In this document: piece after piece, positions 23,462 through 37,163 of the stretch | How positions within the stretch are numbered: position 1 is the first letter of the stretch | Layout of the letters: every line of letters begins with the position of its first letter | Origin: Candidatus Woesebacteria bacterium | GTDB taxonomy: Bacteria; Patescibacteriota; Microgenomatia; UBA8517 | DNA length: 37,233 nucleotides | Direction of reading: 5' to 3' | NCBI GenBank assembly: GCA_016926185.1 | Contig: JAFGPD010000050.1 | Span: forward strand, 1 to 37,233 | Made by a program: the position numbers and the translations under genes | Notes under the pieces: model-generated | Told to the model about the DNA's origin: nothing | Databases searched by the model: none | The model's input: only the letters and a program-made list of their open reading frames with translations

Positions 23462-24130
23462 ATGTTTATTGATATTTTCACACTTTTTCCAGAAATGTTT
23501 GATGTACCTTTTGGAACTTCAATGATGAAAAAGGCAAAAGATATTGGCGCAGTTGAAATAAATGTGCATAATTTACGCGATTGGGCAGAAGATAAGCATA
23601 AAACGGTGGACGGAAGACCTTTTGGTGGAGGTAAGGGGATGGTGATAAGAGTTGATGTTTTAGATCTTGCTTTGCAAGATCTAGATTCAAGAATCAAGAA
23701 TCATGATTCAAGGAAGATCTTACTATCACCACAAGGGCCAGTGTTTACCCAAAATAAAGCCAGAAAACTTTCGAAACTTGAACACATCATTCTAATCGCA
23801 GGTCATTACGAAGGGTTTGATGAGCGTATCAGAAAACATCTGATCGACGAGGAACTCTCGATAGGTGAATATGTGCTAACAGGCGGAGAGATCCCGGCAA
23901 TGGTGGTAACTGATGCAGTAGTTCGTCTGTTGCCCGGTGTTTTGGATCCCGAAGCTACAGAAAATGAAAGCTTCTCTCAAAGTAACGAAGAAACTAATAA
24001 ACAAAGCTACGATTATCCCACATACACCAGACCTGATAAATACAAAGGGTGGAAAGTACCTGAAATATTGCTTTCCGGCAACCACGCTGAAATTGAAAAG
24101 TGGAGAAAAAAATCTTCAAAGAAATCTTAA
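23462..24130 (+). CDS. trmD: tRNA (guanine-N1)-methyltransferase TrmD
   Basis: A 222-aa SPOUT enzyme that makes m1G37 in tRNAs with a G36, preventing +1 frameshifting. All landmarks are present: GRPFGGGKGM (51-60), LLSPQG (87-92), the trefoil-knot AGHYEGFDERI (113-123), SIGEYVLTGGE (133-143), catalytic D151 in VVTDAVV, and YTRP, then LLSGNH, then IEKWR near the end. The ATG at 23462 is chosen because it starts the fold and has TATAAT just before it; the frame is open from 23375. Residues about 72-84 (LDSRIKNHDSR) are extra and encoded by palindromic repeats. A second small insertion lies near 171-183. It is not next to rpsP, rimM or rplS, its usual neighbours. Confidence 0.95.
   Translation: MFIDIFTLFPEMFDVPFGTSMMKKAKDIGAVEINVHNLRDWAEDKHKTVDGRPFGGGKGMVIRVDVLDLALQDLDSRIKNHDSRKILLSPQGPVFTQNKARKLSKLEHIILIAGHYEGFDERIRKHLIDEELSIGEYVLTGGEIPAMVVTDAVVRLLPGVLDPEATENESFSQSNEETNKQSYDYPTYTRPDKYKGWKVPEILLSGNHAEIEKWRKKSSKKS
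23661..23712. repeat. Palindromic repeat cluster inserted inside trmD
   Basis: A perfect 10-bp inverted repeat TAGATCTTGC (23661-23670) / GCAAGATCTA (23674-23683) with a TTT loop is followed directly by alternating GATTC and GAATC units (23684-23712), including the palindrome GAATCATGATTC. It keeps the frame and encodes the extra residues 67-84 of TrmD, between the GGGKGM strand and LLSPQG. The position is probably a surface loop that tolerates insertions. Confidence 0.65.
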
Positions 24131-25356
24131 TTATTTATAAAAGTCTTTACAAAAAACTTCCCAATTCTGAAAAAAATATTTTCTTTTTCCTTGATCAATA
24201 CAATTACCTGTCCTTCAGTTAAGTCTCCACTTTTAAAAGTCTGAGTTTTATAATTTTCTGAAGTGATGTCAACCAAATTATCATCGTCATAAAGTAAGAT
24301 ACTAATAATTCCATCCTCGTTTACTGAAAAAGTTTTTGCACCCAAACTTGCTCTTGCGTTTTTTATTACTTTACCCAATTCGTTTTCAACTTTAATAACT
24401 ATCTTTCTGGGTCTGAAGTATTTATCAACTACTTCTATAGCATGTTTTGCCCTATTACCCTCAGTCCAGATACCTGTCGAACTAGACGTGTAAGTCCAAT
24501 AGTTAACACCTACAACATCATCGTTAACCATCTCAGAAAGTGCAAGATCAATCCATTCAGATTGTTTTTCCTCACTCATAGATCCATGGATATCAGGAAT
24601 GGGAGCACCAAATTCACCAATAACGATATTTCCACCGCTTCTGGAAACCAACCTTTTAATATCGACACCGTACTTTTTTGGGTCTTTAATATAGTGATCA
24701 ACAGTGACCAGTCCATCCAAAGCATCCGTAGTATCCTCATCCATGACTAGATACGCCACATCAGCATTCATTGAAAAATAGTTCGCTTTAACATCTTTAT
24801 CAATGTCTTTAAAAGCCTTTTTAACTTCGGAATACTCCTTTACAATGAACGAGCGGAAATCCTCAACCGAAACCTCACTCCTTGGATCACCAATAACACC
24901 ATTTTCGCATTCCGGGCAGGATGAGAATATATCTCCGTCCTCAAAAAGCTCTGGATTTACTTTAATGAATTGAACTACCTTTCTGACATGCTCTTCCGGT
25001 GTTATCAAAGGATAATTGAACCATCCTTCCCAGCCGGAAATGTTACCCCGGTACCACACTTTCAAATTATTGGCTCTGGCTAATTCAACCCATACTTTTA
25101 TGTATGGCAGGAATTCAACATCGTATGGTGTACCAATTGCAACATGTGTAGCGCCAGTTTCCGCAATCTCTTCTACTTGTTCTTCGATTATTTCTTTGAA
25201 ATAAGGATCCTTGAGTTTTTCTCTCGCAAGATCCCGGGAATACTTCATCGTATCGATCGATTGCACTTCCCAAAACCTATCTTCACAGGCTTTGGCTACA
25301 TCAGCACTTACTAAAAAAAACAAGACAGTTAAGATTATGAATATCTTTATTTTCAT
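24127..25356 (-). CDS. Secreted TIM-barrel glycoside hydrolase-like protein with a C-terminal beta domain
   Basis: A 409-aa exported protein. Residues 1-22 form a signal peptide (MKIKIFIILTVLFFLVSA). Residues about 30-315 look like a GH-A-type (beta/alpha)8 barrel: GATHVAIGTPYD, LKVWYRGNISGW, the candidate acid/base in CPECENG (E149 or E151), candidate nucleophile E248 in VIGEFGAP, and the aromatic subsite VNYWTY (274-279). Residues about 318-395 resemble a carboxypeptidase-regulatory or Ig-like beta domain (KVENELGKVIKNARASLG). The exact GH family cannot be named. As last gene of the polysaccharide operon it may trim or release the polymer. Its ATG overlaps the upstream stop by one base, and its end overlaps trmD by 4 bases. 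Confidence 0.75.
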   Translation of the reverse strand: MKIKIFIILTVLFFLVSADVAKACEDRFWEVQSIDTMKYSRDLAREKLKDPYFKEIIEEQVEEIAETGATHVAIGTPYDVEFLPYIKVWVELARANNLKVWYRGNISGWEGWFNYPLITPEEHVRKVVQFIKVNPELFEDGDIFSSCPECENGVIGDPRSEVSVEDFRSFIVKEYSEVKKAFKDIDKDVKANYFSMNADVAYLVMDEDTTDALDGLVTVDHYIKDPKKYGVDIKRLVSRSGGNIVIGEFGAPIPDIHGSMSEEKQSEWIDLALSEMVNDDVVGVNYWTYTSSSTGIWTEGNRAKHAIEVVDKYFRPRKIVIKVENELGKVIKNARASLGAKTFSVNEDGIISILLYDDDNLVDITSENYKTQTFKSGDLTEGQVIVLIKEKENIFFRIGKFFVKTFINN

Positions 25357-26966
25357 TATTCGTTCATCTTTGTTCCCGGAGGAAGAACCGGATCCATTTC
25401 GTCCAAAAACTCATCTTTCAGCTGATAAATATCGGCAAATGGGTAATGATCAACCAGCTCGAATTTTGATAGTCCCGGTGCATCCACAATCTCCCTCCAA
25501 GTCCAATCGCTCATATCGTAAGTCCTAACCACTATCCATCTCACCCATTTTTCGGGGTTTTCAATGGCGAACTTCCAATACGGACCAGTCCCCTCATGAA
25601 CAAATCGGCTCATCGGAAGTCCCGAAGAAAAGATTATTGCATCGTGAGACGCTGCAGCGATAAGAACATATTCCTTTTCATTTGTGACGTTTTCTTTAAG
25701 CCATCCGCTTACCTCTGTCACGTTTTTACCACTTGCCCCCACAAGAGCATCGTCAATTGTTACAGCATCACGACCCAAAAAAGCAAATAACATTACAAAA
25801 AGATAAATTGCGATCACGGAGAATTTTATATTCTTCAGTCTATCAACAAGGTATGCGAAAAATATTGCGATCGACGGCATCAGCATTATTCCGTAACGTA
25901 CATTGAACCAAGTATCAGTCAAGACTCCCTGAACAAAAAGAACACTATGACCAAAATACAAAGCAAGAACATTGAAAATAAATGGCGATATAAGCGCAAG
26001 TGACGCTATCTTAACTTCAATTTTAAATATTTTATCTTTCAGCAAACCCAAAAAGCCTATCAATCCAAAAACTGCAGGAACTGAATATGAATTATACATC
26101 AGAGCATAAATATAGCTTATTGTTGAAATGAACCAATTTCCTTTTGTATAAAGCTCTCCTGCTGCATCGATCTGAGCCTGCTGGGCATGAGCAGAAAACG
26201 GACCCAAAATAAAATATAAAGGGTCGTTAAAGATAAGCCAGTTCCAGATAACCCACAAGAAAATTGCCAGACTTCCCAAAGTCAGAAAAAGGATGGTAAC
26301 CCCTTCAGCTTCTTCAAAACCTTTTTTGCGAAAGCTGATATAGCTTATTATCATTGCGGAAAAACCAAGCAAAAACCAGCCGTCATAGCGAATCGCAGTT
26401 GAGAGCATTATCCATAGTGCTGACTTTAAAATATCTACAAGCCTCTTTTTCCTGCTCCATAAAAGCAAGTAATAGGATCCGGCAGTCATCGTCGCAAGAA
26501 GTAAAAGTTCCGTCATGGCTGTAGACTGCATATACAAAACGTTGATATTCAAAACAAAGACCAAGACCCCAAAATATCTGGCAAGCACACCTACTCCCAA
26601 TGCTTTTAAATATTTATAGATCAATACACCTACAGCCACAAAAGATATCATCGAAACAATTGCGCCTGAAAGGCCTGAATGCCAGAAAAAATCATTCCAA
26701 ATTGTCGGAAGCATAAGTATGTGCGGAAGCGGCAGCCACACAGAGCCTAATTGAGCAGCGCCGGTCTTTAGTCCTTCAACAACCCTGCGCGCAATATCAA
26801 GATGAGAACGAGCATCATTGTATTTAAGGCCTAAACCATTTTGATAATAATAAATAAAAGTTACTACTGAAACAATTGAGAGAATTCCAGCAATTGTTTG
26901 CACTGGTTTTTTTTCAAACTTTTCAGCAAAATCTCTGATTGCTGTCTTTTTTATACTAAACTCCAT
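25356..26966 (-). CDS. GT-C (PMT-like) membrane glycosyltransferase
   Basis: A 536-aa polytopic protein. After the first membrane segment the loop carries YNDARSHLDIARRV, with an Asp-Ala-Arg motif in the usual catalytic place, followed by SVWLPLPHIL. About ten hydrophobic segments and a soluble C-terminal region of about 125 residues follow. It belongs to the same broad superfamily as the 1-10 kb array but not the same subfamily: the LIGP and GPxYYYL motifs are absent. I chose the ATG at 26966, which is 10 bases after the upstream stop; the open frame to 27029 would overlap that gene. By family it uses lipid-linked sugars outside the cell. Confidence 0.78.
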   Translation of the reverse strand: MEFSIKKTAIRDFAEKFEKKPVQTIAGILSIVSVVTFIYYYQNGLGLKYNDARSHLDIARRVVEGLKTGAAQLGSVWLPLPHILMLPTIWNDFFWHSGLSGAIVSMISFVAVGVLIYKYLKALGVGVLARYFGVLVFVLNINVLYMQSTAMTELLLLATMTAGSYYLLLWSRKKRLVDILKSALWIMLSTAIRYDGWFLLGFSAMIISYISFRKKGFEEAEGVTILFLTLGSLAIFLWVIWNWLIFNDPLYFILGPFSAHAQQAQIDAAGELYTKGNWFISTISYIYALMYNSYSVPAVFGLIGFLGLLKDKIFKIEVKIASLALISPFIFNVLALYFGHSVLFVQGVLTDTWFNVRYGIMLMPSIAIFFAYLVDRLKNIKFSVIAIYLFVMLFAFLGRDAVTIDDALVGASGKNVTEVSGWLKENVTNEKEYVLIAAASHDAIIFSSGLPMSRFVHEGTGPYWKFAIENPEKWVRWIVVRTYDMSDWTWREIVDAPGLSKFELVDHYPFADIYQLKDEFLDEMDPVLPPGTKMNE

Positions 26967-26976
26967 AACGATATTT

Positions 26977-28560
26977 TTAATTCTTAAGGTTAATTTTATT
27001 TTTATTGATGACTTTCTTACTAAGGTCAATATTAAAATAATTAAAATACTGACCTAGTATGAATACTATAAGTATAGTCGGAATGCTCAATGTGATAAAA
27101 AAGTATCCCCAAGCATTTATCGACTGCGGACCGGCAAGATTGTAAATAAATGCCTTGGATTTATCCTCATTGAGAAGGTCAATATTTCTGAAATAGGTAT
27201 ACTTTTGCTCCTTTCCCGATCTGAAAGTAAGTTCCTCGGCTTCTATTTTTGGCAAGTTGCTGTTTGAAGTTACAGCACCTAATGTATTAACGAAAATCGA
27301 ATAAACCAAAAAAATCATGAAAAATAACCGTAATGTCTTATTTGTCCTAATTTTACTCAAAGATATCCCAACCAATATTGCCATTAGAGAATAACTGGGA
27401 ATGAGATATCTGGACCCATACGCCCAACCGCCCCAGGGATCCCCCCACAATGAATAAAGAACTACATTCAGACCCACAGTTAAAACAAAAAACCATAGAT
27501 AACGATCTTTCTTATTGAAAAGCATATATCCTCCGATAAATGAAAAAAGAAGAACAGGAGCATATATTAAGATCCCTCTGTCAGGAGATATTGTGTGAGT
27601 ATATAAACCGTTTATCAAATTCCTTGTTTCAAAAAAACCTAATGCACTTTTATCTTCCTCCGGAGATTCTTCCACAAAACTGTCTTCTTTTTCACTTCCT
27701 TCGAAAAATGGCTTGCCATTTTTCACCTCAGCCACACTTTGCACAGTACCAGCCAACTGAAGATAATTACCATAGGTTACCTTGTTATATGCAAAAAAAA
27801 GCATTATCACAGGAATCACAGAAAGCGCGCTGATAAACATAAGTGGTCTTATCTTGAACTTGAAAATATTTTTTTTATTTTTAAACTTTACAATTTTTGA
27901 TAGTGCAAGAACACCTAAAGGGAATAGTATCACTGCGTTTGGATAATCTATTAAAACACCTGAGGATATCAACAGAAATACAATAGCCAGATCAATAAAA
28001 TTCACTCTCTCTTTCAGTAATATCAAAAAACTACTCAATAAAATAAAGGTCGTAATATGATGTTGGTATAAAGATCCAGCGTAAGAAAAAGCCGGTGTTG
28101 CGAATATAAATACTAGGGCAGCTGTAAATGATGCCATTGCTTTAGCCCCAAGCCTTCTTGTCAGTGAGCAAACCAAACATGTATTAAAAAGCGCAAAAAG
28201 TGCAACAACCAGATTGGCTCCAAATTGGTTATAACCTATTAATTTTCCAAAAATATATCCCGGCACTAATATATAAGACAAACCAGGTGCAAAAAGGGAT
28301 ACGAATTTTCCATCCTTATAACCCAGATCCGGTGCTGCAAAACCGGCAATAGATGTATCAAAAATCGTGGAATCGTTCTCTATAATTGAATAGGTCAAAG
28401 TGAACCTACCTCTTTCTGGCGATAATTCAAAAGGACCATTTTCTATCCAATAATTTGGTTTGTAATTACTTAGATCGATCGATCCGGGTTGTCCTTTAAT
28501 AGATAAAGATATTGCCAAAAACACCGACAGAAAAAAAATGATTTTTCCAATGATTTTCAT
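26977..28560 (-). CDS. Polytopic membrane protein, GT-C glycosyltransferase-like
   Basis: A 527-aa protein. The first membrane segment is followed by an extracytoplasmic stretch of about 75 residues (NYWIENGPFELSPERGRF, then FDTSIAGFAAPDLGYKDG), then many hydrophobic segments with SLYQHHITTF, an acidic loop (EKEDSFVEESPEEDKSA) and WGDPWGGWAYGSRYLIPSY near the last segments. WGDxxGGWxYGxRYLIPS is a pattern I know from bacterial GT39-like mannosyltransferase-type proteins. The ATG at 28560 is chosen: it starts a signal-anchor and lies 1 base after the stop of the acyltransferase remnant. The frame is open to 28611, which overlaps that gene. Donor and acceptor unknown. Confidence 0.72.
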   Translation of the reverse strand: MKIIGKIIFFLSVFLAISLSIKGQPGSIDLSNYKPNYWIENGPFELSPERGRFTLTYSIIENDSTIFDTSIAGFAAPDLGYKDGKFVSLFAPGLSYILVPGYIFGKLIGYNQFGANLVVALFALFNTCLVCSLTRRLGAKAMASFTAALVFIFATPAFSYAGSLYQHHITTFILLSSFLILLKERVNFIDLAIVFLLISSGVLIDYPNAVILFPLGVLALSKIVKFKNKKNIFKFKIRPLMFISALSVIPVIMLFFAYNKVTYGNYLQLAGTVQSVAEVKNGKPFFEGSEKEDSFVEESPEEDKSALGFFETRNLINGLYTHTISPDRGILIYAPVLLFSFIGGYMLFNKKDRYLWFFVLTVGLNVVLYSLWGDPWGGWAYGSRYLIPSYSLMAILVGISLSKIRTNKTLRLFFMIFLVYSIFVNTLGAVTSNSNLPKIEAEELTFRSGKEQKYTYFRNIDLLNEDKSKAFIYNLAGPQSINAWGYFFITLSIPTILIVFILGQYFNYFNIDLSKKVINKNKINLKN

Positions 28561-28561
28561 T

Positions 28562-29611
28562 TTATAACGTTTTAAACAAATATTGACTGTCGTAGCTGCT
28601 TTTGCTTCCAATTAACGATATGTGTAGCCTCCGCATGATATTTATTAATTTCAAATATATATAAATTGCTTGATTTTTAACAACATAGACATCATACTGA
28701 AAACTTTTCTTTTTCGTAAATTCCTTCTTAAGCAAACTATAACCTCGGGCAAAATCAAATTTCTTATAATTTTTTCTCTTCAGATCAATTAATAAATAGT
28801 GTAACAGTACTTTACCAGGAGAAAGTCTTGAGAATCTTTTATCAAAAGCTGTTTGATAAGCCAAATATGTACCCTTATATACAAGTCCCAATCCGTAGGT
28901 AACATATTCTTCCTTGTATTTTAATAGGTCTAGACGCAAACATCCTCCGGCGTATTTGATCATGTTTTAAAAGAGTCTGAAGTTAACATCATCGTTGAGA
29001 ACTGATCTTCCTTTCTTGTTCTTAAAACTATTTTTTTCTATTTCTTTTATGCTTTTCAGATCCTTAAGACCCACATTATTGATAGCTTCATGATTAAGCT
29101 TGTTGGCTTTTTTGATCTTACTGGCAATCTTACTTTTTTGTTTCCTGCTCAGATCACTGAAAACATCGCTTCTGATATCTATGTATGGATTCACCGAGAT
29201 CAAATACGCAAAGCTCATATATTTTTTTATACTTATATCTCTTGCAACTCCATCAGGCAATTCACGTAAAAGCAGATTTCCACATTTGGCTGCTTCGGAG
29301 ATCGCTTTTCTCAAAGAGAGAATATCAGAATTGTTTTTAAAAAGAAGCGAAGATTTTTCTGAAAAAAAATTATTTGCATCCGTTAGAAATTTGACTCCAA
29401 ACACTTTTTTTTCAACAAGAGGAATTATTCCAACAAGCTCATCATTATTATATGCAGCAAAAATACAATAATTTTTATAACCATATGTCTCCAAATTCAC
29501 TCTAAACCATTCAGGTGAATTAAAGAAATTTGCTTCCTTTGAGGCAATCCATAATTCTCTCCACTGGTCAGCAAAATCCTTTTCAAACTCGTTATATTTT
29601 ATAATTCTCAT
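28562..29611 (-). pseudogene. CelD/BcsL-like acyltransferase (GNAT fold) interrupted by an in-frame TAA
   Basis: Two frames, 28967-29611 (214 aa) and 28562-28963 (133 aa), lie in the same reading frame, separated only by TAA (28967-28969) and one AAC codon. Joined, they give one protein of about 349 aa of the CelD/BcsL (Acetyltransf_6) type: FFNSPEWFRV, LVGIIPLVEKK and RKQKSKIASKIKKA in the first half; YVTYGLGLVYKG, RFSRLSPGKVLLHYLL and KKFDFARGYSLLKKEF in the second. The SPG and DFARG motifs of the acyl-CoA site sit after the stop, so the first half alone should be inactive. A single T-to-A change would restore Lys. It overlaps the deacetylase gene by 4 bases. Options are real nonsense mutation, read-through, or assembly error. 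Confidence 0.8.
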
Positions 29612-30411
29612 TTTTGCAGTCTATCCTTGATATTCAGTAACTTTGTAAATAAATTGTTAAATTTCAAACCTTCAGAAGTAAAAAGAGTTTTAAAATCCGT
29701 AAAATAGAGGTGTTTATCAATTGTAACTCTAGGTATCCTGTACAGATCACTCTTATTTTTATATTCCGAACCCTCAATAGTGAAAGCTGCTTTATATCCT
29801 TCATTTTTTAAAACTTTTTTCGCTTTTTTACTATATCGGCCAAAAGGATAGGAGAAGTATCTGAAATTTAATGACAAATTTTTTTCAAGTTTGTTCTTAT
29901 CAATAACTAATGATTCAACTAGATCACTATCAGCTAAATCATTTAAGTTACTATGAATTTTTGAATGATAACCTATCTGCCAGCCAGCAGATCTTAGCTT
30001 TTTTATCTGTTTTTCATTTAGAAGCTCTGCCTCAGAAAGTAGATCTGTGTGTTTTCCCTTGCCTAAAATGAAAACAGTCGCCTTAACATTATATTTTTCC
30101 AGGATCGGAAAAGCGTTTTTATAGACACTTTCGTACCCATCATCAAATGTTATGGTAAATAATGATCTGTTTTCTTTACCGCTTCTTATGAGCTTATCCA
30201 ACCTCACAATTCTTCCGACTTTCAGCAGATATTTGATCTGATCTTCGAATTCAACAGGAGTAACTGACCAGTCCCACTCTTTTTCAGAGATGTCATGATA
30301 ACAAAGGATCGCAGAAATATTTAGATCTTTATTATTACAGAAAATCTTTTGCCACTTTTGAATGACTTTCAGTGATATTTTCCTTAAAGCTATTGACAGT
30401 TTTATTTTCAT
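29608..30411 (-). CDS. Polysaccharide deacetylase (NodB homology, CE4)
   Basis: A 267-aa protein. A basic and partly hydrophobic N-terminus may tether it to the membrane. CE4 motifs: ILCYHD (35-40), catalytic and metal motif TFDDG (88-92), metal-binding H149-x3-H153 in GYHSKIH, SYPFGRYS near 187 for motif 3, then AAFTIEGSE. The family removes N-acetyl groups from GlcNAc residues of polysaccharides or peptidoglycan. It sits between a membrane GT2 and the CelD-like gene, with a 3-base gap and a 4-base overlap, so it most likely modifies the polymer made by this operon. Length is typical for CE4. Confidence 0.88.
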   Translation of the reverse strand: MKIKLSIALRKISLKVIQKWQKIFCNNKDLNISAILCYHDISEKEWDWSVTPVEFEDQIKYLLKVGRIVRLDKLIRSGKENRSLFTITFDDGYESVYKNAFPILEKYNVKATVFILGKGKHTDLLSEAELLNEKQIKKLRSAGWQIGYHSKIHSNLNDLADSDLVESLVIDKNKLEKNLSLNFRYFSYPFGRYSKKAKKVLKNEGYKAAFTIEGSEYKNKSDLYRIPRVTIDKHLYFTDFKTLFTSEGLKFNNLFTKLLNIKDRLQK

Positions 30412-30414
30412 AAA

Positions 30415-31320
30415 TTATTTTGTTGAAGTCGCTGTGAACCATTTGCCTTTATACTTTGCAGAAAATATTGGAAAGAAAGGGATACAAGCCAACTTAATTG
30501 CTATCATTGTAAGTGTATTAACCGGCTGCTCGACCAATACATCCATCACATTTTTCAGATAGAAACTTTTTGGCCTCCTATATTCTTCTCTGACAGCATT
30601 CCCAAAATACTTATCAAACATAAATTTAAGAGATTCGGGATGAGAACGGAAAACCTGTCTTAAAAAATCTTTTAAATTCCCAGCCATCTTAAAATAAACA
30701 ACTGCATCCTTCGCATGCCTGAACTTAAATCCGTATTTTTTATTAAGAAAGTAAATGAATGTATCCTCGACGATCAATTCCTTCGGTAATTTTATCCTTC
30801 TAGCAAAATCCTTTTTCATAGCAAGAATGGCACCAGTGCATCCAAAAACATTGTGTCCATTATTAATTCTTGCTCTTGAGCGGTAATAGACCTCATACGA
30901 AGTGTTTATTGACCTTTGAAAGAAATTTTTTGGAGGGAATACTTTACTGTTCCCCCCGACTAATTTAACCTCAGGGTTCACTCTGAACTCCTTAACTAAA
31001 TTAGTGATAACTGAATCGTCTTTGAGTGTTATGTCGGCATCCAACTGAACTAATAGATCTCCCTTGAACAATTTAACCACCTGATTTACCCTGGCAACCT
31101 TGCCTAGATTACTTTTACCCTGAACTACCCTTAATTTTCTGTTTTTTATTGATATTGCCTCAGCATATGTTTTGTCACTGCTTCCATCACAAATCACAAT
31201 GATCTCTTTGAGTCTCCAATACTTTTGCTTTTGATCCAACACCTGCTGAATTATATTTTTGATATTCCTTTCTTCGTTATATGCAGGAATGAATACCGAT
31301 ACCGTGACCGTCCTTTTCAT
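30415..31320 (-). CDS. Membrane-associated GT2 glycosyltransferase
   Basis: A 301-aa GT-A enzyme: SVFIPAYNEE (8-17), CDGSSDKT (44-51), the metal-binding LDADI (93-97), GCTGAI (160-165), catalytic-base VEDTF (184-188) and RQVFRSH (221-227) in place of the QxxRW motif of processive synthases. A hydrophobic C-terminal segment (TMIAIKLACIPFFPIF) suggests membrane anchoring. The closest type is the COG1215-like group, which includes chitin, hyaluronan and PNAG synthases, but this protein lacks the multiple membrane spans and an exact QxxRW. Its start overlaps the stop of the GT4 gene by 4 bases. Sugar unknown. Confidence 0.83.
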   Translation of the reverse strand: MKRTVTVSVFIPAYNEERNIKNIIQQVLDQKQKYWRLKEIIVICDGSSDKTYAEAISIKNRKLRVVQGKSNLGKVARVNQVVKLFKGDLLVQLDADITLKDDSVITNLVKEFRVNPEVKLVGGNSKVFPPKNFFQRSINTSYEVYYRSRARINNGHNVFGCTGAILAMKKDFARRIKLPKELIVEDTFIYFLNKKYGFKFRHAKDAVVYFKMAGNLKDFLRQVFRSHPESLKFMFDKYFGNAVREEYRRPKSFYLKNVMDVLVEQPVNTLTMIAIKLACIPFFPIFSAKYKGKWFTATSTK

Positions 31321-32429
31321 GATCTTGCCTCTCTTTCTAAGATCTTATAAAAGAAATCTTCATAGTTTTGTGCCACCTTGTCCCAAGTGAATTTACTTGC
31401 AAACTTGCGTAGTTTTTCGCACTTTTCTTCACGGATTTTAGAATTTGCCAGCTCCAAAAGCTTTTCAGAATATTTATTAATATTGAACGCTTCTACTTTG
31501 CCAATAACTTTTTCATCCAGCCAGCATAGTCCGGGAATATCAAAACAGGCAACTGGAAGCCCGGCTGCGAGGGCTTCCAGACAGAGAATGCAAAAACCTT
31601 CATGTCTGGAAGGCACTGCACAAAAAACAGATCTGGAAAAATAATCATATTTCTTTTTTCCAAAAGCAGGACCGACCAGTCTCACCTTTTTACTTAGTCC
31701 CAAATCCCTTACAATTTTTTTAATTTTATATTCATCAGGTCCATTGCCAACGATAATAAGAGGGTATCCGATCTTGTCTTTTACTTTCGAATATGCTTTT
31801 AGCAATATGTCTATACCCTTCTGCCCCATATCAAGCCTTCCCAAAAATAGGATATGTTCCGGTCTATTGTGCTTTATGCCAAAGTAGATATCTTCAACCC
31901 CTTGATATACTATCTTTGATATGACTTTTTTATTATATTTTTCAATCTTTTCTTTAAAATATTTGGATGATGGAAGAAAATATCTATAAAATCTCAGGCC
32001 GAATCTTTCGATCTTGTCAAATGGAAGATGATAAAGCTTTGCGAACCTGTCAGCCTCAAAAGAAGTAGATAATGCTACTACCGGAATTTTTGTAAATACT
32101 GGGCTAAAAAGAGTACTGATAGGTGAAGTGAAACATTCAACAATAATATCTGACTTAAGACTTAAAACATAGAATGGTAATAATAATATATAGATGATGT
32201 TATTTAGCCTGATATTTCCAGTTGGCAAACCTATATGTTTATAGCTTATTCCATCCTCTATCCTGTCCTTATATCCCGGGTACTTTGAACAAATTACTTT
32301 GATCCTGTGTCCTTTATTTGTTAATCGGCTGCAAACCTCATAAGTGGCACGAGCCTGACCTGCCCCTAAAAGTGGATTTTTCATATCGTCAAAATCCAAG
32401 TATGTAATACTAAGTTTTTTATTTTTCAT
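31317..32429 (-). CDS. GT4 glycosyltransferase (GT-B fold)
   Basis: A 370-aa protein. The N-terminal half starts TYLDFDDMKNPLLGAGQARA, a glycine-rich acceptor-side loop. The C-terminal half has ILFLGRLDMGQKGIDILLKA, the nucleotide-sugar side IIVGNGPDEYK, and the family signature E-x7-E in RHEGFCILCLEALAAGLP. GT4 enzymes are retaining and use NDP-sugars in the cytoplasm. No membrane span is obvious, though one hydrophobic stretch (IIYILLLPFYVLSL) near residue 80-95 may touch the membrane. It lies 6 bases after the triple-glycosyltransferase gene and overlaps the GT2 gene, so it is part of one polysaccharide operon. Confidence 0.9.
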   Translation of the reverse strand: MKNKKLSITYLDFDDMKNPLLGAGQARATYEVCSRLTNKGHRIKVICSKYPGYKDRIEDGISYKHIGLPTGNIRLNNIIYILLLPFYVLSLKSDIIVECFTSPISTLFSPVFTKIPVVALSTSFEADRFAKLYHLPFDKIERFGLRFYRYFLPSSKYFKEKIEKYNKKVISKIVYQGVEDIYFGIKHNRPEHILFLGRLDMGQKGIDILLKAYSKVKDKIGYPLIIVGNGPDEYKIKKIVRDLGLSKKVRLVGPAFGKKKYDYFSRSVFCAVPSRHEGFCILCLEALAAGLPVACFDIPGLCWLDEKVIGKVEAFNINKYSEKLLELANSKIREEKCEKLRKFASKFTWDKVAQNYEDFFYKILEREARS

Positions 32430-32435
32430 TTTTAT

Positions 32436-35400
32436 CTATTTTCTATCAATTTCATCATATGCATACGAATGCTCAATAACAATATCATCGGCAAATACAC
32501 CGCTTTCTTCCTCAGATACCTTCTCAATCTCATATAGAAATCGCTCAGATGATCTCTCCCAGCTGAAACCTTTAGACCACTCATAAGCCTGTTTTGTCAG
32601 TAAAGACAGAGAATCACTGTTTTCAATTAAATAGATCATTTTGTTCTTAAGATCCTTAATATTCCTATCCTCAAATAAAAGTCCGGTTTTACCGTCAAGA
32701 ACCGAGTCGCTCAGACCATTGACGTTTGATGCAATTACAGGTGTACTACAAGAGTTGGCTTCAATTACAGTAATTCCCCATCCTTCAAAAGATGATGGTT
32801 GGACACATGCCCAAGAGCGTGAAAGCAGCTCGATCTTCTTGTCTTCATCAACAAACCCAAGAAGTTTCACATTTTCCTCAAGACCTAAGTCAGTAACCAA
32901 TTTTTCGATCTTTACAGCATAATCTCCCTTACCCGCTATATAAAATAAAGCATTAGGATAACTCACAACTACTTTTGAAAATGCTTTTACTGCAATATCA
33001 ATATTTTTATAAGCCTTCAATCTCCCCAAATAAGAAAATAAGGGATAAGTTGTTTTCTTGTAACTTTTCGTTGTCACCTTTTTCACACCTGGATTGACTA
33101 TTGATATGTCGTCATAATCAGCCCAGCCCCTTTTAACGATATCCTTTTCAGAAGACCCAGATATCGTTACTATCTTCTTGCCTTTATAAAGAGAGGGCAT
33201 TATATACGCTTCCATAAACTGTGCAATGTTGGATAAAGGGAATATCAGATTTTCTCTAAATACATTTTGATGAACATGGTGTATCAATAAAATCACAGGA
33301 ACTTCTGCGTACAGGGGGCTAAAAAAGGGTATCCCGTTGGCACTGTCTACAATAACGTCAAACTTATTTCTAAATTTAAAAATGTAATACAAAAATGCGT
33401 ATAGATATACTGTATAAAATCCACCCCTGCGTATCATTCTCACACCATCAACAAACTCCTCACGTTTTGATATACCGTCCCAGCCGCAAAAGACAGTAAC
33501 TTCATTTCCTGACCTTACCCACCTCTTTGCAATTTCATGCAAATATATTTCCGCCCCGCCGGACCAAATATGTTTAGTGTCCCTCCAGTTGAAAATTAAG
33601 ATATTCCTTCCATTCTTGGCCCGAGTCTGCGGATAATCCTGCAAAAGGCTCAAAATATCCTCAACATTTTTTAAAATAACCTTAAGAGCAGATCCGATTT
33701 TTCTTAGAATGTTTGAGATCACTGTCGGATCAAAGTAGATGATCTCAAGATCGATCTTTTGGTTGAATAGTTTTCTACTGTTATTTATACCCAGATGCAA
33801 ACCGTGCTTTGTTTTCTCCCAATGATGAGGTTTAAAAAGAAGCTGATAAAAAGCAATTCCGGCAGCGACTGATGTCATTGCCCAATAGACTGGCACCAAA
33901 AAAGTGTATTTCATAACCTTCCATTGCCTTCTTTTTGCCAAACCTATCATATAGTTATAAAAGTAGATAAAATTACCAAACACTAGAGTTAAGGTGGCAA
34001 GATAGAAAACCGGCGCTGGGTAAAGTGACTCGATAACTTCTGCAAAATGGCCATCAAGAATGAAATAAAGCGCAGTAACTGTCCAGAGAATTGGATTTAT
34101 TAATATGAAAGTCATACGCAGACCTATTGTCAGTTGGAATACCAGCGCTTGATAGCCATGTTTTCGAAAAAAGCTAATGGGGTCCCTCATGTGTACCAAA
34201 TATGTTTGCCAATATCCCTTTATCCAGCGCGACCGTTGTTTCAGCCAACTTTTTAGTTTGCTATTAGCTTCTTCATAAGTGGTTGAATCAATTATCGCAG
34301 TTTTAAATCCTTCCTTAAAAAGCCTTGCCCCGAGATCACAATCCTCCGTAACATTAAAAGGATCCCAGCCGTCAAGATAACGAAGAGCATTTACTTTGAA
34401 ATGATTGCTAGTGCCACCTAACGGGATCGTTGCTTCAATTGATTGAAGACCAGGTAAAATAAGATCAAACCAGAGAGAATACTCAGCCGTGAACAATCTC
34501 GTTATTATATTTTGATCTGTATTATAATAATTAAGCTTAGACTGCAGACAAACGACTTTCGAATTGGATTTTTTAAAAGCAATGTAGGCTTTTTTCAACT
34601 GCAGAGGGTCAGGTCTGTCTTCCGCATCATATATTACAAGATATTCACCTTTCGCCAACCCAAAACCATAATTACAAGCTTTTGGCTTTGTTTTTGGCTG
34701 TGAGTCGGGAACAATCACTATCCTGAAATACTTCGGCAGGTTTAAGTTTATTGCAGCCTCCTGGGTCTCTTTGTCGTCCTCCTCTAAAAGAAGCTGAACA
34801 TCGAGTTTGTCTTTTGGCCAATCCATCTTTTTAATTGCTTCTACAAACTGAACCAATACCTCCTTCTCTTTATAAAGGGGGGATAGAATTGTATATATAG
34901 GCAGTTTACTTTCATCAATTCTTTCAATTTCCTTTCTATTGAATTTTATCTCTGGAGGAAAGTTCAAGCTTTTGATAAGCAATCTTAACCCGAATATCAG
35001 ATCAGCAGAATAAACTAGTGTTAATAGAGTTATAACTGTGATTATAATTAATTTGGGATTGAACAATAAAAATGTAAAAAACACCAGCAAAATCTCCAGG
35101 ATCAAGATCTTTTGCCAGAAGTAAAACGTTTTTAAGGCAGACTTGCTTTCAGGTAACTTTGAATGGGTCTTGTAGTTTTTACCATTATTACTGACACCCG
35201 AGCCGATATAACTGCCTCCGTTAGTCGATATTTCCTGAAGTACAGGTCTATTCCTTAACTTAAGCCTAATTGCAGAAAGAGCGATCTCAACTGAAGCAGT
35301 GAAGATATTAACCTTTGAACTCCCGCTCTTTCTTTCAGAAAATTCAATATCATACGTTCCAATTTTATATCCCATATCTTTGGCTTTTAGAAGAAGCGGC

Positions 35401-35993
35401 ATATCAAGAGTCCATGGTGTAATATCATTTTTATCGTTCTTTAAACCAATATCTCTTTTGAACACCTTCAGACCTGATTGAGTGTCACAATTCAATCCCA
35501 AAAGAACTTTTTCAAATATCCAGATGTTTATTTTTGAAAGTGTTTTGCGAATAGCACCAATGTTTTGTATTTTTCTGTCAGCAACCGCAATTCCATTTCT
35601 TTGTGCGATTTTGAAAAGCTCTGGGATCGCTTCCGGGGGGTACTGAAGATCACCATCGATCATGGCAACATACTCAGATTCCGAATGTTTAACACCTTCC
35701 AATATCGAATATGCCTTACCTTTCTTTCCTCTTTTGCTGAACAGTTTTATCCTTGAGGATCTCGGTATTTTATTGCCAATGTTATTAGAATCAAAAAGCA
35801 CTTTATTAGCGTCGATATAACGTCTGGATGCTTCTTTTACTTTTTGAACAGTAGAATCGGTCGAATGATCATCAACAAATATTACGTTGTAGTCGATATC
35901 CGCCCCTGACAGACTTCTGTCGATCCTTTCAAGAAGCTCATTAATATTTCCTGCTTCGTTATAAACTGGTATTATAATGTCTAGTTCACTCAT
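32436..35993 (-). CDS. Triple glycosyltransferase fusion: GT2 (DPM-like) + membrane GT2 (processive-type) + GT4
   Basis: A 1185-aa protein of three catalytic modules. Residues 1-250: a GT-A domain with IIIPVYNEAG, VDDHSTDS (40-47), IDGDLQ (112-117) and DTQSGLKVF (170-178). Residues 293-343: two membrane segments. Residues 360-600: a second GT-A domain with YDAEDRPDP (455-463), TED (549-551) and QRSRW (586-590, the QxxRW motif), then membrane segments at about 612-720 and KPHHWEKTKHG (721-731). Residues 795-1160: a GT-B domain of family GT4 with SGGAEIYLHE, GRLKAYKN and E1070-x7-E1078. The middle module is of the COG1215 type. It heads an eight-gene operon, with a structured leader upstream. 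No stop or frameshift lies at the joints. Confidence 0.92.
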   Translation of the reverse strand: MSELDIIIPVYNEAGNINELLERIDRSLSGADIDYNVIFVDDHSTDSTVQKVKEASRRYIDANKVLFDSNNIGNKIPRSSRIKLFSKRGKKGKAYSILEGVKHSESEYVAMIDGDLQYPPEAIPELFKIAQRNGIAVADRKIQNIGAIRKTLSKINIWIFEKVLLGLNCDTQSGLKVFKRDIGLKNDKNDITPWTLDMPLLLKAKDMGYKIGTYDIEFSERKSGSSKVNIFTASVEIALSAIRLKLRNRPVLQEISTNGGSYIGSGVSNNGKNYKTHSKLPESKSALKTFYFWQKILILEILLVFFTFLLFNPKLIIITVITLLTLVYSADLIFGLRLLIKSLNFPPEIKFNRKEIERIDESKLPIYTILSPLYKEKEVLVQFVEAIKKMDWPKDKLDVQLLLEEDDKETQEAAINLNLPKYFRIVIVPDSQPKTKPKACNYGFGLAKGEYLVIYDAEDRPDPLQLKKAYIAFKKSNSKVVCLQSKLNYYNTDQNIITRLFTAEYSLWFDLILPGLQSIEATIPLGGTSNHFKVNALRYLDGWDPFNVTEDCDLGARLFKEGFKTAIIDSTTYEEANSKLKSWLKQRSRWIKGYWQTYLVHMRDPISFFRKHGYQALVFQLTIGLRMTFILINPILWTVTALYFILDGHFAEVIESLYPAPVFYLATLTLVFGNFIYFYNYMIGLAKRRQWKVMKYTFLVPVYWAMTSVAAGIAFYQLLFKPHHWEKTKHGLHLGINNSRKLFNQKIDLEIIYFDPTVISNILRKIGSALKVILKNVEDILSLLQDYPQTRAKNGRNILIFNWRDTKHIWSGGAEIYLHEIAKRWVRSGNEVTVFCGWDGISKREEFVDGVRMIRRGGFYTVYLYAFLYYIFKFRNKFDVIVDSANGIPFFSPLYAEVPVILLIHHVHQNVFRENLIFPLSNIAQFMEAYIMPSLYKGKKIVTISGSSEKDIVKRGWADYDDISIVNPGVKKVTTKSYKKTTYPLFSYLGRLKAYKNIDIAVKAFSKVVVSYPNALFYIAGKGDYAVKIEKLVTDLGLEENVKLLGFVDEDKKIELLSRSWACVQPSSFEGWGITVIEANSCSTPVIASNVNGLSDSVLDGKTGLLFEDRNIKDLKNKMIYLIENSDSLSLLTKQAYEWSKGFSWERSSERFLYEIEKVSEEESGVFADDIVIEHSYAYDEIDRK

Positions 35994-36062
35994 GTAATTT
36001 CTCTCTAAATAAAACCGCTTTTTTATAAAGTGGGTGCAGTTCGTTTTAAGTTAGAAACAAAA

Positions 36063-36088
36063 TGCCTTGGACTTTAAGGTCCGAGGCA
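36063..36088 (-). terminator. Second of two tandem intrinsic terminators in the leader of the triple-glycosyltransferase gene
   Basis: On the minus strand TGCCTCGGAC (36088-36079), a 6-base loop and GTCCAAGGCA (36072-36063) form a 10-bp stem with one non-Watson-Crick position, followed by TTTTGTTT. It lies 70 bases before the ATG at 35993. On the plus strand no T run follows, so it acts on minus-strand transcripts only. Confidence 0.6.
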
Positions 36089-36092
36089 GTTC

Positions 36093-36161
36093 ATTAAACA
36101 AAAAATCCAGCCTGGCAGTCTAGCTAACTTTTGTTTAATTGACTAAACTAGACAGGCTGGA
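36093..36161 (-). terminator. First tandem terminator, with crossing complementarity (possible attenuator)
   Basis: On the minus strand TCCAGCCTGTCTAG (36161-36148) pairs with CTAGACTGCCAGGCTGGA (36123-36106), leaving a 4-base bulge, and six Ts follow at once (36105-36100). The loop contains ATTAAACAAAA (36139-36129), an exact 11-base complement of TTTTGTTTAAT (36103-36093) at and beyond the T run. The two pairings interleave, so they form a pseudoknot or exclude each other; the second would hide the T run. This is the geometry expected of a switchable terminator. Confidence 0.65.
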
Positions 36162-36199
36162 CAGCTTTTAAAAATACTTAAATCAATACATTTTTACGT

Positions 36200-36237
36200 A
36201 TTATAGGTATTATACCTCTAAAAAGGACTTTTAACAA
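36200..36237 (-). promoter_or_regulatory. Promoter TTGTTA-17-TATAAT ahead of the triple-glycosyltransferase operon
   Basis: On the minus strand TTGTTA (36237-36232) and TATAAT (36214-36209) are separated by exactly 17 bases, the best vegetative-type promoter in the window. A second TATAAT follows at 36205-36200. The first -10 box lies in the short palindrome GGTATAATACC. Transcription would start near 36202, upstream of both terminators, giving a leader of about 210 bases before the ATG at 35993. Confidence 0.65.
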
Positions 36238-36257: not shown

Positions 36258-37163
36258 CTAAACCGTACTCTGTCCTGTGATCTTATCGATTATTTGCTTC
36301 CAGGTGCTAAATTTCATTCCTAATGTCTTTTCTGTCTGCCTAACCTTCAAGCCTCCATATTTTGGCCATCTTACTTTACTTCCGACCGACCTGACATATT
36401 CATCAAAAGATGATCGTTCAACTACATTTTTCTTTCCTCTCGCTTTTTCTATTATATAGCTACCCAGTTCGTAAGGAGTAGAAATATCTCTGGAGCTTGC
36501 GTGAAAAGTGCCAAAAACATTCCCTTCGATCATTCTCAAGATCGCCTCGCAGGCTTCATCAACATCAGTTATTGAGATATATTGATCGTGAAAAAGAGGA
36601 TAAAGCTTGCCTTCATCATACATCTTCAGCCTGCCCAAAACCTGGGGGTCCAATTTTTTCTTATATCCAGTGCGTACAGGATAAATCAGTCTCAAAATAC
36701 TACATTTATCCCCCAAAACAGCCTTAACGGCATTCTCTGCACATTTTTTGGTATATCCATACCAAGTAAGCTTCTCAGGATCATTTTCAGGCTCATGGGC
36801 TTCCTCATAGGGTCCTGTATCATCTTTTCTTCCTGAAAAAACCATATCAGTAGATATGTGAATAAAATGAGTTTGCTCAGGATCGATAACATTTGCCAAG
36901 TTCCTGGTCCCTTCGACATTAACCTGCCAACAGAGGCTAAATCTATCTCCTCTTTGCTTTTCAGCCTCACTAACATCAGTATAAGCTGCAAAATGGACAA
37001 TAACATCAGGTTTATTATTGATGATATATTTACTAACTGCGTCTTTTTCCGTCAGATCAAGTTTGTTAATTCCAGGAGTCAAGAGTCTGTATCTATCTTT
37101 AAAGATTTCTACAAACTTTGAACCAACCATTCCACTTGAGCCAGTGACAAGGATTTTTTTCAT
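36258..37163 (-). CDS. NAD(P)-dependent sugar reductase, RmlD-like (dTDP-4-dehydrorhamnose reductase family)
   Basis: A 301-aa short-chain dehydrogenase of the extended type. Nucleotide-binding G8-x2-G11-x2-G14 (TGSSGMVGS), VIVHFAAYTDVSEAE (55-69), HISTDMVFSG (102-111) with catalytic Thr, and the catalytic pair Y135-x3-K139 are all in place. HFAAYTDVSEAE and STDMVFSG are typical of RmlD, which reduces dTDP-4-keto-rhamnose to dTDP-rhamnose. An assignment to another NDP-sugar epimerase or reductase cannot be excluded. It overlaps the preceding partial gene by 4 bases. That gene looks like the end of RmlC, which strengthens the rhamnose-pathway reading. Confidence 0.8.
   Translation of the reverse strand: MKKILVTGSSGMVGSKFVEIFKDRYRLLTPGINKLDLTEKDAVSKYIINNKPDVIVHFAAYTDVSEAEKQRGDRFSLCWQVNVEGTRNLANVIDPEQTHFIHISTDMVFSGRKDDTGPYEEAHEPENDPEKLTWYGYTKKCAENAVKAVLGDKCSILRLIYPVRTGYKKKLDPQVLGRLKMYDEGKLYPLFHDQYISITDVDEACEAILRMIEGNVFGTFHASSRDISTPYELGSYIIEKARGKKNVVERSSFDEYVRSVGSKVRWPKYGGLKVRQTEKTLGMKFSTWKQIIDKITGQSTV

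Follow-up and report, generated by a model that had tools for sequence, protein, structure and literature searches.

A predicted intrinsic transcription attenuator ahead of a long glycan operon in a Patescibacteria genome

Between the predicted promoter and the first gene of a presumed glycan operon in the 1.11-Mb genome of an uncultured Patescibacterium (G000) that has Candidatus Woesebacteria as its nearest named relatives, we found two predicted intrinsic terminators in series, so that the minus strand reads promoter, terminator 1, terminator 2 and glycosyltransferase ATG. The sequence elements themselves, and the order of promoter, hairpin, T tract and gene across genera with stems that have changed in sequence yet still pair, are directly observed. 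We read this leader as a promoter-proximal intrinsic transcription attenuator, a reading to which the sequence gives about an even chance of being correct, and by which the operon is probably throttled through early termination. Coordinates refer to the window, the whole stretch of 37,233 nucleotides that was analyzed, and are collected in Table 1.

Results

Operon and predicted promoter

The minus-strand open reading frames are tightly packed and almost gapless from 35993 to 24127, about 11.9 kb, and the first of them encodes a protein with three glycosyltransferase parts, in agreement with the earlier note, which had described a triple-glycosyltransferase gene at the head of an operon of some 12 kb. 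Many orthologues of this fusion are longer (~1550 aa): between their second GT2 and GT4 parts they carry a segment of ~400 aa that is missing from the window protein.

The TTGTTA-17-TATAAT motif that had been called as a promoter is present, although as a motif alone it is unremarkable, with 52 sites of this type in the region versus 59.6 in shuffled sequence. The TATAAT aligns with the -10 element of seven same-family orthologues, most of them with AGTATAATACTAT, and in most same-family orthologues AGTATAATACTAT or a close variant lies 54-73 nt before the ATG. AGTATAAT occurs in 8 of 42 glycosyltransferase leaders, compared with 9 of 524 other leaders. The window -10 is also covered by a perfect 13-base dyad, and in several relatives the alignment places a different perfect dyad at the -10, TAGTAT-A-ATACTA (TAGTATAATACTA), with the changes matched on both sides. 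This dyad could be a repressor site.

Table 1. Features of the leader and its surroundings, with positions in the window
Feature	Position	Strand	Remarks
rmlD-like gene, upstream neighbour	36258..37163	-	stop 21 bases before promoter
Sigma-70-type promoter TTGTTA-17-TATAAT	36209..36237	-	10/12 consensus positions; predicted transcription start near 36202
Perfect 13-base dyad AGGTAT-A-ATACCT (AGGTATAATACCT) over the -10	36205..36217	.	read directly
Terminator 1, long hairpin GTCCAGCCTG...CAGGCTGGAT + TTTTTT	36099..36162	-	stem 36162-36105, T run to ~36099
Loop arm ATTAAACAAAA of crossing complement	36129..36139	-	not conserved
Tail arm TTTTGTTTAAT of crossing complement	36093..36103	-	alternative fold -17.8 versus -27.8 kcal/mol
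Terminator 2, TGCCTCGGAC-CTTAAA-GTCCAAGGCA + TTTTGTTT	36055..36088	-	stem 36088-36063, tract to 36055
Weak third hairpin AACTGC...GCGGTT	36012..36042	-	-5.2 kcal/mol, marginal; ends ~18 nt before ATG
Alternative -10 TATAAA, below both terminators	36022..36027	-	read directly; poor -35 (CTTAAA); absent from consensus-scan list
GT2-GT2-GT4 glycosyltransferase, 1185 aa, operon gene 1	32436..35993	-	ATG at 35993; three glycosyltransferase parts
Remainder of presumed operon: glycosyltransferases, polysaccharide deacetylase, weakly FemAB-like and other proteins	24127..32429	-

Two predicted terminators in the leader

Terminator 1 is the strongest among the leader hairpins listed in our hairpin scan, with a predicted energy of -27.3 kcal/mol alone and -31.5 kcal/mol together with its 5' flank (the first 103 nt), a value that compares with -16.6 for shuffled sequences (z -5.1) and that none of 200 shuffles equaled. 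Its strong stem and T run are as the earlier note described them, but the 4-base bulge given there is only one of two possible registers, the minimum-energy fold having a 2x1 internal loop instead. Terminator 2 (-12.7 kcal/mol) likewise has the hairpin and T-rich tract ascribed to it, with a stem of 9 bp containing one C.A mismatch rather than a clean 10 bp. Both have a stable G+C-rich hairpin directly before a U-rich tract (TTTTTTGT and TTTTGTTT, respectively), which is the sequence definition of an intrinsic terminator, and both lie between the predicted promoter and the first controlled gene, as leader terminators do and as is repeated in relatives. The hairpin of terminator 1 stops 111 nt short of the ATG and that of terminator 2 stops 69 nt short of it. 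The weak third hairpin, which had gone unnoticed, sits near the place of the single hairpin of the relatives.

If the promoter fires as predicted, RNA polymerase would start near 36202 and meet terminator 1 and then terminator 2 within ~100 nt, where most transcripts would end as RNAs of ~100-150 nt, while a read-through fraction would yield the 12-kb glycan operon mRNA. The terminators would in this way set a low output, and they could also stop transcripts arriving from rmlD. Read-through may depend on polymerase speed, NusA/NusG and the UTP level, or on help from an unnamed factor.

The crossing complement and candidate regulators

The earlier note had proposed a terminator/anti-terminator switch, pointing to an 11-base complement between the loop of terminator 1 and the sequence over its T run. 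That complement is exact (36139-36129 with 36103-36093), and a match of this length is expected in about 4 of 10,000 cases with a shuffled loop, a post hoc figure. The switch built on it, in which the loop and the T-run region would form an anti-terminator under ligand or protein control, is nonetheless very improbable. When the crossing pairing is forced, the resulting fold is 10 kcal/mol weaker than the terminator fold (Table 1), its 3' half is made during transcription only after the terminator hairpin can form, and all but one of its pairs are A/U. The conserved pairing that had been suggested as a check is not seen, the loop/tail complement of the relatives being 3-4 nt against 11 in the window. 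The complement is most likely a matter of chance, aided by an A-rich loop lying opposite a T tract.

As the earlier note had recognized, the leader fits no known riboswitch class: searches against Rfam at gathering and relaxed thresholds gave no credible match and no family at or above its gathering score. A weak similarity to the PyrR-binding attenuator (RF00515) over 36178-36055 reaches 20.4 bits against a gathering score of 54 (E 1.1) and was treated as chance; unlike the loci of that attenuator, this one is not a pyrimidine operon. No leader peptide was found before terminator 1, where the sole ATG-started reading frame is ATG-TAT-TGA (36191-36183). A second NusG of the RfaH or LoaP type was not found either, a single NusG N-terminal domain having turned up in G000 (94% complete) and more than one in 0 of the 38 genomes searched; control of the RfaH or LoaP type is disfavored because the genome has one NusG. 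Partial, constitutive read-through is the likeliest case, given that the searches turned up neither a competitive fold nor a leader peptide, a known riboswitch or a NusG paralogue. Cold-shock protein was considered as a general antiterminator and rejected, as it is present in G000 and was not found in five glycosyltransferase-bearing relatives, four of which have a leader hairpin.

The leader in related genomes

Of 374 genomes in the class, 58 have strong relatives of the glycosyltransferase (E <= 1e-150), and 41 glycosyltransferase leaders were drawn from this class-wide set. A hairpin with a T tract lies between the upstream gene and the glycosyltransferase in five genomes of the same family (G031, G015, G020, G009 and G014) and in single members of other families. 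The full arrangement of TATAAT promoter, hairpin with T tract and glycosyltransferase start is found in G031, G015, G020, G009 and G051, so that it recurs in other genera. In G015, G020 and G009 the hairpin is clean, is followed by T5-T8 and ends 14-16 nt before the ATG, and the G031 leader runs from TATAGTATAATACTT through TCCAGC...GGCTGGATTTTT and AAGGAG to the ATG. In G014 the gap from rmlD to the glycosyltransferase reading frame contains ATATAGCC...GGCTATAT followed by a T tract, with a weaker promoter candidate. Outside the family, where hairpins and promoters are too diverged for sequence alignment, clean hairpin-T elements were found in G051 and G311 and weaker ones in G380 and G299. 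Several orthologues (G017, G021 and G069) have the promoter without a clear hairpin, and most leaders across the class are without a clear hairpin.

The base of the terminator 1 stem, TCCAGC/GCTGGA, is common to G031 and nearly so to G015; the remaining stems differ in sequence. Among eleven stems, 76 of 88 positions pair, compared with a mean of 44.7 and a maximum of 68 in 5000 trials in which the 3' arms were dealt to other rows, a count that describes covariation among chosen stems and is not independent proof, because the hairpins were found by a hairpin search. Searching the relatives with the whole leader DNA gave short chance-level matches only. The distance from -10 to ATG varies from ~60 to >200 nt, and although relatives keep the promoter and a hairpin, they do not keep the RNA sequence of the leader. 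This weakens the idea, raised in the earlier note, that the terminated RNA of ~100 nt is itself a small RNA product: a promoter followed by a terminator is also the layout of a small RNA gene, but such a product is extremely unlikely because its sequence is not kept. We also found no second copy of the leader sequence in its own genome.

The best rival to an attenuator is an insulator, in which terminators 1 and 2 only end transcripts from rmlD (and, if it is active, from the promoter at 36237), and the operon starts from the previously unnoticed TATAAA at 36027-36022 with a leader of ~22 nt. Two tandem terminators look the part, rmlD is the immediate upstream neighbor in the window as well as in G015, G017, G031 and G014, and the -10-like TATAAA stands below terminator 2. 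This arrangement fits the window, although the alternative promoter has a poor -35. It does not fit several relatives in which only 10-16 nt separate the hairpin from the ATG, too little for a promoter below it, and in which a conserved TATAAT stands above the hairpin. In G009, G020 and G051, moreover, the upstream gene is unrelated or distant, and because the layout stays where rmlD is not the neighbor, the hairpin travels with the glycosyltransferase gene and is not simply the terminator of rmlD. Terminators right after stop codons are also rare in these genomes, clean ones being found at 10 of 323 3' ends and at 3 of 118 convergent ones (L121-L180 sample). We therefore consider the insulator unlikely and assign the leader, promoter and terminators together, to the downstream operon, as the earlier note had done. 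The genome encodes Rho, with a nearly full-length match at G000:C57, and Rho as the reason for the few 3' terminators is compatible with these counts, which are not proof of it.

As a separate observation, CTGCC occurs in 12 of the 41 glycosyltransferase leaders against 1.6 expected, and CTGCCC is present in 8 of these 41, compared with 13 of 560 leaders of other genes. The CTGCC(C) sites are in L021, L078, L081, L087, L088, L091, L093, L098, L101 and L102 and in the terminator 2 (36088) and 36042 regions of the window. They are mostly in glycosyltransferase leaders without a clean hairpin, and certain rho leaders contain TTGCCC, which resembles them.

Genome background and gyrA leaders

As background we used the window together with ~1.2 Mb of sequence stretches, drawn from a sample of genomes belonging to the family and the class. 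A loose genome-wide hairpin scan was discarded, as chance hairpins dominate it and sense and antisense counts are similar, and stricter hairpin definitions were used after it. With these, a clean hairpin-T tract no more than 70 nt from the start was found in 6 of 41 glycosyltransferase leaders and 15 of 524 others (Fisher 0.0024), a comparison that uses open reading frame calls, not annotated starts, and related genomes that are not independent samples. The Markov expectation for the 41 leaders is 0.42, and the antisense count for the 524 others is 10. Counted separately, hairpin-T elements were present in 7 of 41 glycosyltransferase leaders and in 10 of 524 others (Fisher 7e-5). The gyrA leader of G000 was one of the other leaders.

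Seven of 22 gyrA leaders also have a clean hairpin-T tract (7e-6), a count that includes the genome of the window (L185, at G000:C42:5598) with L186, L188, L190, L195, L207 and L208, and in which only the relatives count as evidence, because gyrA was chosen for having the element in G000. Their layout, seen in the same family, runs from the -10 to a hairpin a few bases on, mostly AGGCT...AGCCT, then a T run and the ATG. No clean hairpin-T tract was found in the rho and nusG leaders of relatives, and a hairpin in the nusG leader of G000 was dropped, as it seems to fall within the coding region of the preceding gene and relatives lack it. From the glycosyltransferase, gyrA, rho, nusG and background counts, hairpin-T leaders are therefore rare overall but kept at certain genes. 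Other hairpin-T elements close before a start codon were seen at L160 (murD-like), L161 (a small membrane protein, atpI-like) and L166 (radical SAM-like), all putative names read off the translations, and at L150, L147 and L137.

In the relatives and the gyrA leaders, little sequence separates the promoter from the hairpin, and the U tract adjoins the ATG with no clear Shine-Dalgarno sequence, an arrangement that would also suit a 5' mRNA stabilizer with a U-rich ribosome landing site, lacking a Shine-Dalgarno sequence, before the start codon, rather than a terminator. This fits the window poorly, since its terminator hairpins end 111 and 69 nt upstream of the ATG, and in G031 the hairpin and T tract stay adjacent even though AAGGAG follows the tract. 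Leader hairpins are, in addition, followed by 7 T in 8 more often than expected (6 of 65, versus 0.6% of background 8-mers), and we regard this alternative as quite improbable.

Extending the attenuator reading beyond the glycan operon is more tentative. It is possible, though we think it doubtful, that the Microgenomatia, including Woesebacteria, have a class of promoter-proximal terminators at a limited set of operons, among them those for glycan assembly and gyrA and a small number more, amounting to a conserved factor- or rate-controlled attenuation of ultrasmall bacteria that is none of the known switch types. In that class the hairpin would start close to where transcription begins, with the U tract reaching nearly to the start codon.

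Discussion

Control by attenuators in the leader has long been established, and the leader as we read it is a new example of known leader attenuation, in a lineage with almost no experimental transcription data. Our literature search found little on the regulation of transcription in Patescibacteria, and none of the papers it covered dealt with Patescibacteria, riboswitch and promoter together. If one glycan operon retains a leader terminator in different genera, and gyrA has a similar one, this would suggest that organisms with small genomes exert control during elongation, and the glycosyltransferase and gyrA leaders are named loci where RNA 3'-end mapping would answer directly. Because the testable defining features of the named switch families were not found in it, we do not file the leader under any of them.

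The nearest systems differ from this one in distinct ways. RfaH, acting with ops, controls enterobacterial polysaccharide operons, which have in common with the present case a long surface-polysaccharide operon and control of elongation; here no RfaH-type second NusG was found. LoaP, a paralogue of NusG whose action requires an RNA hairpin of the UNCG type, controls the leader terminators of dfn and mln in Bacillus velezensis (PMC12691694), where a leader terminator likewise precedes a very long biosynthetic operon, whereas only one NusG gene was found here. In Escherichia coli, premature termination in 5' UTRs is common, as in ispU with its 6-bp stem and eight U, and the leader terminators of that species share with ours the succession of promoter, short leader, hairpin with U run, and gene (PMC7815308). 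The present leader differs from them in that no sensed signal or competitive fold was identified and two terminators stand in series, and in that different genera of Patescibacteria retain its layout at one glycan operon, with a similar one at gyrA.
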